DNA of 41,021 bases from Gammaproteobacteria bacterium (lineage in GTDB: Bacteria; Pseudomonadota; Gammaproteobacteria; GCA-001735895), in the NCBI GenBank assembly GCA_024229615.1, contig JAAESG010000542.1:1-41021 (forward strand). Direction: 5' to 3'. Positions 13,385 to 20,266 of this stretch are shown one piece after another (position 1 is the first letter of the stretch; each line of letters starts with the position of its first letter). The position numbers and the translations under genes are program-made. The notes under the pieces are model-generated. The model searched no databases. It saw nothing but the letters and a program-made list of their open reading frames with translations, and was not told the origin of the DNA.

Positions 13385-13452
13385 CATGCATATTCAGAAG
13401 GATCTGGCCGGCGCCAGATCGCTTTTACGGGTTGTTAAAAGGTACTTATGAA

Positions 13453-13698
13453 ATGATTAAAGTTCTAGCATTAATACTGGTCATTGGTGGTACATCAATT
13501 TATTACACGGATATGGAAAGCGAATCTGCGCTGGCCTCGGTCTTACTGCCCATCCTGGTTGTGATTTCGTTGATAGCACTAGCACTGTGGCTGGTCACTC
13601 TTTTTCACAACAGAGGAATTGTGCAAACCACTCATTCAAGTGTTGATGGTTCATCTGGCTTTATGGGGGATGATTCCGGAGGCGGGGATGCGGGTTAA
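13453..13698 (+). CDS. small hypothetical membrane protein
   Basis: An 81-residue protein with two hydrophobic segments (KVLALILVIGGTSIYY near 3-18 and VLLPILVVISLIALALWLVT near 30-50), a short acidic loop, and a Ser/Gly/Asp-rich tail ending in DDSGGGDAG. ATG at 13453 is preferred over the in-frame TTG at 13432 because AAAGG lies about 10 bases upstream. I recognise no family. It follows the HAD gene by 68 bases and immediately precedes the hairpin array. It looks like a real gene because of its clean two-helix pattern and ribosome site, but it could be lineage-specific. Confidence 0.55.
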   Translation: MIKVLALILVIGGTSIYYTDMESESALASVLLPILVVISLIALALWLVTLFHNRGIVQTTHSSVDGSSGFMGDDSGGGDAG

Positions 13699-13756
13699 GG
13701 TTTTGGTTTCATGTATAGGGAAGCTCTGAACAATGCATCCTGAATTGTCAGAGGAC

Positions 13757-13868
13757 GGAGAAACAAAAAATGTGGTTTTTGTTTCTCCTTCATTTTCAAC
13801 GACTTAACGGTCATTGAAAATGGCGGTGTGTCCTTGCACCGCGGAAACTCTAATAAATCAGAGTTTCC
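13757..13868 (+). ncRNA. run of four consecutive hairpins, candidate structured RNA or DNA element
   Basis: Four hairpins follow with two or no bases between them. H1: 13757-13769 pairs with 13776-13788 (13 bp, GGAGAAACAAAAA). H2: 13791-13799 pairs with 13814-13822 (CATTTTCAA), with GAC/GTC pairing inside. H3: 13823-13828 with 13837-13842 (GCGGTG/CACCGC). H4: 13843-13851 with 13860-13868 (GGAAACTCT/AGAGTTTCC). No frame here is convincing. H1 followed by TTCATTTT could by itself be a terminator for the small membrane-protein gene. The rest could be a small RNA, a recombination-type structured DNA, or several stacked terminators. Strand is inferred from the upstream genes. Confidence 0.5.
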
Positions 13869-13871
13869 TTA

Positions 13872-14197
13872 GATGTGCCCGGTAACATGCGTTTACCGCC
13901 GTGGCCCGGCTAACACCAGGCCGTTATTCTGGTATTCGATAAAGATAACGGTTTACCACTCACGGTACTGGATGGGCACCCGATCACCGAAATGCGTGCC
14001 ACGGCCGGCTCAGCCGCTGCTGCTCGCAAACTGGCCACCACGGATCGAGTGGTTGTGAAATATTCGCCGAAATTGGAGAGATCTACAGCGGTTCTCAAAT
14101 TGTGCCTAAAGGGAGCACGGTGATTTATGATTCTGTCGGTATGGTGATCATGGATGTTGTAGCCGCGAAACAGGCCTATGACCTGATTGTAAATTAG
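13872..14197 (+). pseudogene. decayed ornithine cyclodeaminase family gene
   Basis: Translated pieces match the ornithine cyclodeaminase/mu-crystallin family: PGNMRLPPWPG then a TAA stop at 13911-13913, then in the same frame HQAVILVFDKDNGLPLTVLD, GHPITEMRATAGSAAAARKLA. After about 14055 the similarity continues one frame over as EIGEIYSGSQIVPKGSTVIY, DSVGMVIMDVVAAKQAY, ending at a TAG (14195-14197). The central NAD-binding Rossmann region (about 130-150 residues) is missing at the junction. The N-terminal part before PGN is also absent; the hairpin array sits there. So the gene has a truncation, an in-frame stop, an internal deletion and a frameshift. It cannot make a functional enzyme. Confidence 0.75.
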
Positions 14198-14335
14198 CAC
14201 CAGGCTCAACCTGCGCCAACTGCGGTAGTGTAGTCGGCGTCTATCTGTTCGGCTGACCTGAAATTAGCCATGCAGCAGGGATTAGCCTGCGAGGTACATC
14301 ACGTTTATACTCTCGCTATCTGGAAGGAGTGAACT

Positions 14336-14836
14336 ATGCCTAATAATAAAGTCCTGATACCGCTGAATCAGTCGGAACTCAGTCAGAAAATAGTGCCCAG
14401 CGTCGAACAGTTTTTCCCCGCCAGTGGCAATGACCTCGTATTGTTTTTTATCACCAGGCCACCCAGTGCGGCGGGCTTCGGTAAACCCGACCTGGGGGCG
14501 GGTTACGTGCAATTGCCTGGCGATGAACCGGTTACACCGACGCTCCACCCCATTTATGCCTCGCAGCAGGAAGATAGCATCAAGGCCCATGTCGAAGCCG
14601 AGCTGACGCCCCTAACCAGCCACCTCGAGGATGTCGGTTATAAGGTATCGATCATGGTAGGTTTTGATAAAGATCCGGTCGACGCAATCTTGCGTGTTAT
14701 TGGCGAGAATGAAATCAACCTGGTCGCCATGTCTACTCACGCTCGAGTGGGTGTGACGCGCTTTTTCTTCGGGAATATCGCCGATATTCTGGCACAGAAG
14801 GCAAAGATTCCGGTGTTGCTGGTACACCCTTCGTGA
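14336..14836 (+). CDS. universal stress protein, UspA family
   Basis: Single-domain Usp protein of 166 residues. It starts NKVLIPLNQSELSQKIVPSV, has an insertion of about 30 residues after the first strand region, and ends with NEINLVAMSTHARVGVTRFF followed by a GNIADILAQKAKIPVLLVHP segment. The ATP-binding G-2x-G-9x-G-(S/T) pattern is only partly kept (G..RFFFGNIAD), so nucleotide binding is uncertain. A strong ribosome site (GGAAGGAG) lies seven bases before the ATG. Transcribed alone; role presumably in stress survival. It is followed at once by a long palindromic element. Confidence 0.85.
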   Translation: MPNNKVLIPLNQSELSQKIVPSVEQFFPASGNDLVLFFITRPPSAAGFGKPDLGAGYVQLPGDEPVTPTLHPIYASQQEDSIKAHVEAELTPLTSHLEDVGYKVSIMVGFDKDPVDAILRVIGENEINLVAMSTHARVGVTRFFFGNIADILAQKAKIPVLLVHPS

Positions 14837-14841
14837 CCCTG

Positions 14842-14984
14842 GCCCGCATTTCTCACCACCTTATCTACTGCGACGACGCTATGCCGCAGCCTGCCTGCAT
14901 TTGGCTCGGTCAGAGCGCTCATAAAATACAGGCAGGGCACGACCTCTCGTCGCCTCGCAATGAGTGGTGGTGAGAAATGCGGGC
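14842..14984. repeat. 143-bp palindromic element with perfect 19-bp terminal inverted repeats
   Basis: GCCCGCATTTCTCACCACC at 14842-14860 is exactly inverted at 14966-14984. Inside, GCGACGA (14870-14876) pairs with TCGTCGC (14947-14953), and CCTGCCTG (14890-14897) pairs with CAGGCAGG (14929-14936), so the whole element can fold as one long hairpin. No ORF. It starts five bases after the UspA stop. The size and terminal repeats resemble a MITE, although target-site duplications are not apparent; it might also serve as a bidirectional terminator for the converging uspA and thioesterase genes. Confidence 0.65.
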
Positions 14985-15058
14985 TAGTGCTTTTTCAGTA
15001 CCCAGGATTCAAGGCACCGCTCCGGCAGGTGACGGCAGCGCTATAGATTTGTTATCGA

Positions 15059-17213: not shown

Positions 17214-17392
17214 AGCGGGAGTTGGCGAGTACGCCGACTGCAACGGCGTAAAGGCGGTTGCCCGGCACCGAAAATCGTATTACGAACGGGCTAACTCAGA
17301 TAATCCGATGGTCGTGATCGAATTTAATAGTTATCTTCGATTGCTTGATTCCAATAGCATACGATCTGGTCGAATATCTTCAGGTAAACCTA

Positions 17393-18580
17393 TTGTTTGA
17401 TCGAAGGCCTACTGGCCTGCAGGCCTTCTCGGGTCATGCAGGCGAGCCGATCGCCAGGCTAAACTCCATCGAAGGATTTGCACGTTCGTTGCTGATCGGG
17501 ATCATTCCGTTATTGGCCCTGGAGGCGCTCGGCAGCAAGGAGATGGTAACGCGTGCCTATCTCGCGGCCTCGATTCTTACTTTGATGATTACACTCAACT
17601 TTGCCGGCCTGGAGCGCCTGCTGCAAAGACGCTGGGTATTGACACTGGGTGCAGGCTTTACGATTAGCGCCACCCTCATTTTGAGTTTCGGCCAGGGTTG
17701 GATCATGTCGATAGCGATTGGCTTGCAATCCGCGGCTGCGTCGTTGTTTTCGGTTTGTATTTCGTTATACATCATGGATTACATCGGTAAGAAAGAGCTT
17801 GTTTTTACCGAGTCAAAGCGACTGTTTTATACCGGTATTGCGTGGATGATCGGTCCGGTGCTCGGACTATGGCTATGGGAAGAAACCCATCACTGGGTGC
17901 CGTTTTTGCTCGCGGCATGCGCTTCGGTCGGCATGCTTGGTTATTTCTGGTACTTACGGCTGGGGCACAGCCAGGTTATCCAGAAGGCTAAAAAACCATC
18001 GATCAACATCTTTAAAATCATCCCTCGGTATTTTGCGCAATCGGCATTGCGTATCGCGTACTGGATTACCCTGTCGCGGGCAATTTTCTGGATGACTGTT
18101 TTTATCTATGCGCCTATTTATGTGGTTGAGTCAGGGTTGTCGAAATGGGTTGCTGGCGGGTTGCTGTCGCTGGTGAGTTCCCTGCTCATCGTAAGTCCGT
18201 TGATCAGAAGACTAGCCGGCCGGTTTGGAACTCGCCTGCTCATCATCTGCGCGTTAATGCTGAGCGGGATTTCAATGACCATGCTGTTTTTTGTGGGTGA
18301 GCCAAAACCCATCGGCCTGCTATTCTGGATCAGCGCTGCGCTGGGGGGTGCCATCGTCGATGTACTTGGCAATATACCCTTTATGCGTATGGTCAAACCG
18401 CGTGAAAGAACCGAGATGACGATGATATTCTCGACCTGGCGTGAGGGCTCTCAGTTGCTGACGCCACTGTTAGTATCGCTGGTGTTGTTGGTAGCGCCAT
18501 TTGAAGTTTTCTACCTGCTACTTTCTACAATATTGATCAGCGCTAGTCTGATGGCGACATTCCTGCCGCGCAGGTTGTAA
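17393..18580 (+). CDS. MFS transporter
   Basis: Major facilitator protein of about 395 residues with roughly twelve hydrophobic segments and a central cytoplasmic loop (WYLRLGHSQVIQKAKKPSIN). Similarity to MFS proteins begins near SIEGFARSLLIGIIPLLALE. The start is uncertain: no in-frame ATG precedes the first helix. TTG at 17393 has AGGT seven bases upstream and is preferred; TTG at 17345 is the alternative. Substrate unknown. A small CTCTGC/GCAGAG hairpin (18594-18610) follows the stop and may help termination. Confidence 0.78.
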   Translation: MFDRRPTGLQAFSGHAGEPIARLNSIEGFARSLLIGIIPLLALEALGSKEMVTRAYLAASILTLMITLNFAGLERLLQRRWVLTLGAGFTISATLILSFGQGWIMSIAIGLQSAAASLFSVCISLYIMDYIGKKELVFTESKRLFYTGIAWMIGPVLGLWLWEETHHWVPFLLAACASVGMLGYFWYLRLGHSQVIQKAKKPSINIFKIIPRYFAQSALRIAYWITLSRAIFWMTVFIYAPIYVVESGLSKWVAGGLLSLVSSLLIVSPLIRRLAGRFGTRLLIICALMLSGISMTMLFFVGEPKPIGLLFWISAALGGAIVDVLGNIPFMRMVKPRERTEMTMIFSTWREGSQLLTPLLVSLVLLVAPFEVFYLLLSTILISASLMATFLPRRL

Positions 18581-18781
18581 GGATTTAAAGCATCTCTGCA
18601 ATAGGCAGAGCCTCTGCGACACAGGGGAGTGCCGCCAATTCTCGATCGCACAAATGGCTGGAATATGAAGGAAAACGCAAAATCGTGGTTGTGTTTTTCG
18701 TGCTCTGCTAAGTCAGAGCCTGCCTCGGAAACTGCGCGGCTCGCTCGATCCGGGGATGATTTATGCGGAGCTTGCTTTTGG

Positions 18782-20266
18782 TCAGCTGCCGGTTTTGACC
18801 TTGATGACCGATTCATGCCAGTCAGCGAGCAGTAAATTGCGCTGATTGCTTTCCATGCCGGGATCGAATTCCCGATCGGCCTGCCAGCGTTTCGAAATAT
18901 CGTCCAGTGATTCGAACAGGCCAACCTGCAATCCGGCCAGATAAGCAACTCCGAGGGCGGTGGTCTCGGTTTCAACCGGCCTTTCGACGATGATGTCGAG
19001 AATATCGGCAAGAAAACTGCACAACCAGTTGTTCTGTACCATGCCGCCATCGATCCGTAGGCGTGTCGGTTTGAGTCCGTCGCGGCGCTTCGCTTCCAGC
19101 AAATCAAAAGTCTGATAGCAGACCGATTCGAGTGTGGCGCGCACCAGTTCAGCCGGCCCGGTATCGCGCGTGATGCCGAAGATAGCGCCACGCGCGTCGG
19201 GATCCCAATGCGGTGCTCCCAGCCCGGTGAAAGCGGGCACCAGATACACTCCGTTATTGGAATCGAGTGACGCGGCCAGGGCTTCGGTTTCGCGCGCGGA
19301 TTCGATCACACCGATGCCATCGCGCAACCATTGCACCGCGGCGCCAGCGACAAAGATGGAGCCTTCCAGGGCATAGGTAGTTTTGCCATTGAGGCGATAA
19401 GCGACCGTGGTTAACAGCTTGTTGTTTGATGTCAGGGCTTGATCGCCGGTGTTAAGCATCATGAAACAACCGGTGCCATAGGTGCTCTTGATCATGCCGC
19501 GCTCGAAGCAGGCTTGCCCAATGAGTGCTGCTTGCTGGTCTCCAGCCACGCTTGCGATCGGGATTTCGGCATCGAGCAGGGTTTTACTGGTTGATCCGTA
19601 ATCATCGGCGCAATCGAGTACTTCGGGTAACAGTGATGTCGGCACAGACAGCATGCCGAGCAAATCGTTATCCCATTGTTGCGTATGGATATTGAACATC
19701 AGCGTGCGCGACGCGTTGGTGGCGTCAGTTGCGTGTACCTCGCCCCCGGTCAGGCGCCAGATCAGGAAGCTGTCTATAGTGCCAAATGCGAGTTCTCCCT
19801 TTTCCGCGCGTTCGCGCGCTCCGCCCACGTTGTCGAGAATCCAGTTGACTTTAGTGCCAGAGAAATAGGGGTCGAGTAGCAAACCGGTTTTTGCGCTAAC
19901 CTCAGGTTCCAGTCCCTGTTCGCGCAACGCCTCGCAGAAACTCGCGGTGCGTCGGTCCTGCCAGACGATTGCATGGTAAACAGGCTCACCGCTGGAACGG
20001 TCCCAGACCACGGTGGTTTCGCGCTGGTTGGTAATACCGATTGCGGCGATATCGTGTTGCTCTGATTTTGCTTTGTCCAGGGCTTCACGAACCACGGCCA
20101 ATGTCGTAACCCAGATTTCTTCGGCGTTGTGTTCTACCCAGCCATCCTTTGGGAAATGCTGGCCAAATTCCTGTTGTGCGGTAAACACGGCATGACCGTT
20201 GGTGTCAAACAACATCGCGCGTGAACTGGTCGTACCCTGGTCGATACTGAGAATATACTGGCTCAT
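18782..20266 (-). CDS. glpK: glycerol kinase
   Basis: FGGY-family cytoplasmic kinase that phosphorylates glycerol to sn-glycerol 3-phosphate with ATP. Length 494 is standard. It opens with [18 protein letters not shown], keeps the [10 protein letters not shown] block with the glycerol-binding Arg-Glu pair near residue 82, [13 protein letters not shown] with the catalytic Asp near 245, and [11 protein letters not shown] for phosphate binding. AGGAGG precedes the ATG. It is the last gene of the leftward glycerol cluster, 146 bases after glpD, with a dispersed palindromic repeat in the gap. Confidence 0.96.

Follow-up and report, generated by a model that had tools for sequence, protein, structure and literature searches.

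A conserved five-hairpin plan in an apparently undescribed family of ~150-base mobile elements of many Proteobacteria

The element described here lies in a 41,021-nucleotide stretch of gammaproteobacterial DNA (contig JAAESG010000542.1; the window), downstream of a short membrane-protein-like frame and upstream of two fragments of an ornithine cyclodeaminase gene, which match positions 92-128 and 265-310 of the 314 in the Pfam profile OCD_Mu_crystall. The gene remnant noticed beside the hairpins before any database search is thus genuine, and the gene is decayed. The hairpins had also been taken to replace its N-terminal part; this finds no footing, as no cyclodeaminase sequence was seen to the left of the element, the remnant is also internally deleted, and a relative with an intact locus was not found. 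No link between the decay of the gene and the element is seen at the window locus. About one kilobase further on, 3' of a universal-stress-protein gene, an inverted repeat at 14848-14985 (CCCGCATTTCTCACCACC ... GGTGGTGAGAAATGCGGGC) may represent another dispersed palindromic repeat; similar words (GTGAGAAATCCGGG, CCGCATTTCTCACC) adjoin copies of the element in other genomes (L060, L122, L165).

The original prediction placed four adjacent hairpins at 13757-13868, within a unit of 112 nt. All four are present, with a minimum free energy for this stretch of -52.8 kcal/mol on the plus strand (z -10.2) and -55.6 kcal/mol on the minus strand (z -10.3), which none of 200 shuffled controls matches; as single-stranded DNA, the window copy adopts the same fold as RNA. 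H1 and H2 measure 32 nt each, as had been stated, and the predicted stem layout stands apart from H3, whose stem reaches up to 8 bp if G-U pairs are included, rather than 6. The unit itself is larger than foreseen: similarity among the aligned flanks of the copies begins at GGAAGCTCTGA, 38 bases 5' of H1, and ends at TCAGAGTTTCC, the end of H4, and a fifth hairpin, H0, is found within those 38 bases in aligned copies and folds; the element therefore comprises 13719-13868, 150 bp with five hairpins in a row (Table 1). The terminal hairpins hold the transposon ends, H4 the right one. The second, decayed copy in the window is matched by the covariance model at 18616-18701 (E 6.8e-4); it is flanked by two long frames whose 3' ends converge on it, one of 411 aa and transporter-like (17345-18580), the other glycerol-kinase-like (18782-20266).

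Table 1. Features of the element and of its second copy in the window.
Feature	Position	Strand	Remarks
Whole mobile element (putative), type A	13719..13868	+	150 bp, no gene; borders set by the limits of similarity among dispersed copies
Target duplication, left copy ATAG	13715..13718		imperfect partner of TTAG, 3/4; read directly
Target duplication, right copy TTAG	13869..13872		read directly
Left terminal inverted repeat GGAAGCTCTGA	13719..13729	+	same kind as the IS5_4 ends of L186 and L175
Right terminal inverted repeat	13858..13868	-	TCAGAGTTTCC on +; GGAAACTCTGA read inwards
Hairpin H0	13724..13753	+	loop region TCC on +, GGA on -; from folds
Hairpin H1	13757..13788	+	13 bp, 32 nt; conserved loop RYGYGR
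Hairpin H2	13791..13822	+	9+4 bp, 32 nt; variable loop
Hairpin H3	13823..13842	+	at most 8 bp; conserved loop RTCCNT on +, ANGGAY on -
Hairpin H4	13843..13868	+	includes the right end of the element
Second, decayed family copy	18589..18776	-	extra sequence in H0; borders approximate, ends read by eye

A DNA search of the source genome returns 19 matches, most of them at 92-100% identity, and a covariance model of H1-H3 returns 52 (E up to 1e-3). With a cut-off of 1e-5, the same kind of model detects the element in 46 of the 274 genomes sampled from the class, many with at least 16 copies, and it also occurs beyond the class in other genomes of the phylum; within the genus, the distribution is patchy (7 of 31). 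A pattern based on H2 and H3 matched no fewer than 110 stretches in named genomes, almost all of them from Gammaproteobacteria, with Sedimenticola, Chromatiales, Muproteobacteria and the Olavius algarvensis Gamma 3 symbiont among the hosts; the match on a Calothrix plasmid (L086) is due to chance. In two narrow tests, viral contigs gave no match to the exact pattern and plasmids none to one type A copy. In Rfam, the element has no match at gathering score in any family; weak matches to the plastid psbA 3'UTR involve H1 alone and are not accepted as membership. The family is thus larger and far more widespread than is visible from the sequence of the window alone.

Several copies depart from the common plan. 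L129, L133, L163, L075 and L160 represent a structural variant in which an extra stem (for example CGTGGCCATAAGATTATTTATGGTGC) expands the H1 loop. L064, L105 and L116 form a divergent subfamily in which H0 and H1 are different and H3 and H4 unchanged; their contigs are labelled Klebsiella pneumoniae (MAG), a label that may be a binning error. Two longer elements, L030 and L033 of genome G016, have the family-like ends H3/H4 and a different interior (GCAGGTTTTGCATCGTTACATGG...); they are possibly recombinants, or another MITE with the same ends.

The copies terminate in short inverted repeats of two types on one core, A (GGAARCTCTGA) and B (CAGGNTGTTGAAAAA), and copies of both types are flanked by 4-bp duplications of the YTAR type, exact in 37 of the 51 with recognisable ends; the duplication of the window copy is imperfect (ATAG/TTAG). 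YTAR is the target of IS5 (PMC10359306). Type A-like ends are also found on transposase elements: L174 (1158 bp) has TTAG duplications and an open 317-aa transposase frame, L186 (1191 bp) has CTAA duplications and a frame that appears broken, and both occur in genome G045, which also holds type A copies; in a third such element, L175, the ends are less exact. The proteins of L175 and L186 belong to NCBIfam transpos_IS5_4. Among the transposase loci examined from host genomes, none is an IS with type B ends, and the five PF05598 matches in the source genome include no intact partner IS. PF13586 transposases were rejected as partners, with none in 17 host genomes, as were those of PF01609, for which the source genome gives three weak or broken matches without matching ends.

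An autonomous IS bearing the hairpin core was not found among 33 transposase loci, where the sole core match, in L181, belongs to a distinct type B element that has ends of its own; the element is therefore not a simple internal-deletion derivative. Nor was an empty insertion site found in the genus, so that it is the anatomy of the copies that points to transposition. The original prediction had considered a structured RNA, a substrate for single-strand recombination and the end of a mobile element. Of the last of these, mobility is upheld by the multiple copies, the terminal inverted repeats and the YTAR duplications, and it is a whole element rather than an end that they mark.

The core is kept while the ends differ between types A and B. 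In an alignment of 113 different core sequences, pairing holds in 91% of cells, and double compensatory changes occur in 30 of the 34 base pairs of the three core hairpins. Covariation scores 0.418, compared with 0.141 for shuffled controls and no more than 0.118 for slid partners. Fitting the alignments to the structure biases them in its favour, and related copies are not independent; even so, the margin over the slid controls is large. When copies from outside the class are aligned separately, 24 of the 34 pairs show double changes and the score is 0.486, against 0.162 when shuffled. Two of the checks proposed for the original prediction, a covariance model and a genome-wide search for copies, have thus yielded compensatory changes in several stems and multiple genomic copies; as to the structured RNA it envisaged, the structure is indeed conserved, each of the three core stems showing compensatory changes, while a role as RNA is only possible.

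The sequences of the stems vary freely and the loops of H0, H1 and H3 hardly vary (Table 1). H0 was absent from every search pattern and model, and its loop is nevertheless TCC (GGA on the minus strand) in 53 of the 56 family H0 hairpins; the conservation of the H3 loop is partly built into the pattern. The interior of the element thus appears, on comparison of its copies, to be under selection.

Taken together, the family has what characterizes an IS5-group MITE: it is short, lacks a transposase gene, is dispersed in many copies and has 4-bp YTAR duplications on its flanks; as for the inverted repeats, a likeness to those of IS5 elements in host genomes is found for type A only (L174, L186, L175). 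It is very probably a non-autonomous IS5-group MITE that is moved in trans and carries a constrained hairpin core, the loops of which are shown to a partner. A transposase made elsewhere would bind the ends and move the element into YTAR sites, and insertion would fall mostly between genes, often at their 3' ends. The loops, in RNA or in single strands of DNA that have been extruded, may be presented to a partner that recognises their sequence and that would help the element to persist or spread.

A serious rival to a role as RNA, and one that we rate as somewhat less than an even prospect, is that the palindromes are kept as DNA: hairpin-templated correction during replication would mimic compensation, and extruded hairpins would aid transposition, serving in end recognition or in protection from read-through, with no function of the RNA. 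In agreement with this, nearly all changes are full double changes, G-U accounting for 34 and A-C for 75 of about 2076 cells, single-stranded DNA of the window copy folds likewise, and the transposon ends lie inside the terminal hairpins. Correction, however, leaves unexplained why the loops are more conserved than the stems and why A-C is more frequent than G-U; because the loops are conserved over the stems, neutral correction of palindromes is an insufficient account. Moreover, hairpins are not known to be required for IS5-type DDE transposition.

A more specific version of the main explanation, tentative and in our view rather unlikely, holds that the hairpins act in minus-strand RNA, as a mobile site that binds CsrA/RsmA or serves it as a decoy. 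H3 and H0 show A(N)GGAN loops on stems, giving two sites about 90 nt apart; read-through transcripts would bind CsrA dimers, whereby neighbouring mRNA would be changed or CsrA titrated. The high-affinity RsmE/CsrA site has the form of a hexaloop ANGGAX on a stem (PMC4005645), and it is this form that the minus-strand loops of H3 and H0 match; in H3 (A-N-GGA-Y), the free N coincides with the free position of the motif, and the GGA of H0 recurs almost throughout, though this hairpin entered no pattern or model. Against this, the motif was spotted post hoc.

The two strands are also asymmetric: wobble pairs are more frequent on the minus than on the plus strand (75 vs 34, counted as A-C and G-U cells on plus), also when the strongest column is left out (28 vs 9 representatives, p 0.0026), and the minus strand is predicted to fold better in 53 of 66 cases, to which loop terms contribute. 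Yet wobble pairs are scarce on both strands, which suits DNA palindromes better than RNA; in typical structured RNAs they are not rare. A simple scan around the window copy only showed no sigma-70-like site in 13400-14400, and neighbouring genes show no preference for transcription of the minus strand (12 vs 21). csrA is encoded in 39 of the 43 hosts tested, and the assemblies that lack it are incomplete or fragmented, but its presence is little informative, as the gene is common in these hosts anyway. In one host genome (G424), nine csrA matches accompany six copies of the element.

The Rfam model for RsmW gives one weak match, on the minus strand of one copy (E 0.026), which lies below the gathering score, is not repeated on other copies and is not accepted as membership in the Csr/Rsm families; of the several A(N)GGA-loop hairpins typical of these RNAs, each element offers only two, H0 and H3 on the minus strand. 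At its widest, and with the same low expectation of being right, this would amount to a MITE superfamily whose minus strand carries ready pairs of CsrA/RsmA-binding hairpins, perhaps with the H1 loop as a third that is recognised, and which, in spreading through the Proteobacteria, would rewire or titrate the global post-transcriptional regulator of its hosts.

The surroundings of the copies bear on a further alternative, by which the main role of the element would be to terminate transcription, or to stabilise mRNA 3' ends, at the gene ends where it has landed; this we consider improbable. Copies do lie preferentially near gene 3' ends, in 23 convergent against 10 divergent neighbourhoods (with genes called by a simple longest-frame rule), and in the window terminator-like scores are obtained for H1 on the plus and H3 on the minus strand. 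Such placement, however, is also expected from selection against insertion into genes or promoters and from the fact that YTAR contains TAA or TAG; in 14 of 48 copies, the stop codon of a long frame falls within a duplication, a weak excess over the expected 18% or so. Further, most hairpins are not followed by a proper U-tract, and termination has no need of conserved loops. The orientation of the copies relative to genes shows no significant bias. A single-copy cluster of terminators is ruled out by the copies, and a chance cluster of hairpins left behind by gene decay, for which the decayed cyclodeaminase gene next to it might speak, can be dismissed as next to impossible for an element that is multi-copy, sharply bounded, widespread and covarying.

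As a non-autonomous MITE with a constrained hairpin core, the element belongs to a known general kind, and its conserved architecture is both unusual and well supported. The usual view of bacterial MITEs is that of IS remnants in decay, with a single stem from end to end; the present family contrasts with that view in its five-hairpin plan, its covarying stems and its loops, which are near-invariant across distant hosts. No description of a MITE with this five-hairpin plan or with CsrA sites was found in the open-access literature, and the family is apparently undescribed. At the least it constitutes a missing annotation, present in about one in six of the sampled genomes of the class and without a match in Rfam at gathering score; should the CsrA reading prove right, sites bound by a global RNA regulator would be spread by a mobile element.

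Among known systems, IS5-family IS (NCBIfam transpos_IS5_4) and their MITE derivatives share with the element the GGAA.. inverted-repeat ends, the 4-bp YTAR duplications and the dispersed copies; it differs from them in having no transposase gene, a hairpin core seen in none of the transposase loci examined, and a second end type, B, for which no matching IS was found. REP/BIME, ERIC, Correia and RUP are likewise short, dispersed palindromic repeats, but mostly consist of one long end-to-end stem, or of RAYT-tied palindromes of 20-40 bp, and have other targets (see also PMC2229807); REP/BIME with RAYT, which make no target duplication, are ruled out by the 150 bp unit, the inverted-repeat ends and the YTAR duplications. 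An integron attC cassette array is unsuited, because the copies are dispersed singly with target duplications.

The Csr/Rsm sRNAs (CsrB, RsmY, RsmZ, RsmW) resemble the element in their A(N)GGA-loop hairpins if its minus strand is read; unlike them, it is not a dedicated sRNA gene and has no Rfam match at gathering score, and neither a promoter nor a terminator of its own was seen. The CIR repeats of Caulobacter and Brucella, of about 110 bp, have two separate hairpin arms without an end-to-end stem and expose a protein-recognition motif at the loop (GANTC), but what this motif attracts is a DNA methyltransferase; terminal inverted repeats are not listed for them, and they differ in hosts and sequence (PMC2229807). 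QMITE2 of Coxiella burnetii differs in its variable duplications of 7-11 nt and its GTAG REP, is known from essentially one species and short relatives, and has no reported conservation of loop motifs; like the element, it measures 150-190 bp, is highly structured, occurs in tens of copies and lies mostly in 3' untranslated and intergenic regions, and it is the source of the sRNA CbsR16 (PMC5896051).
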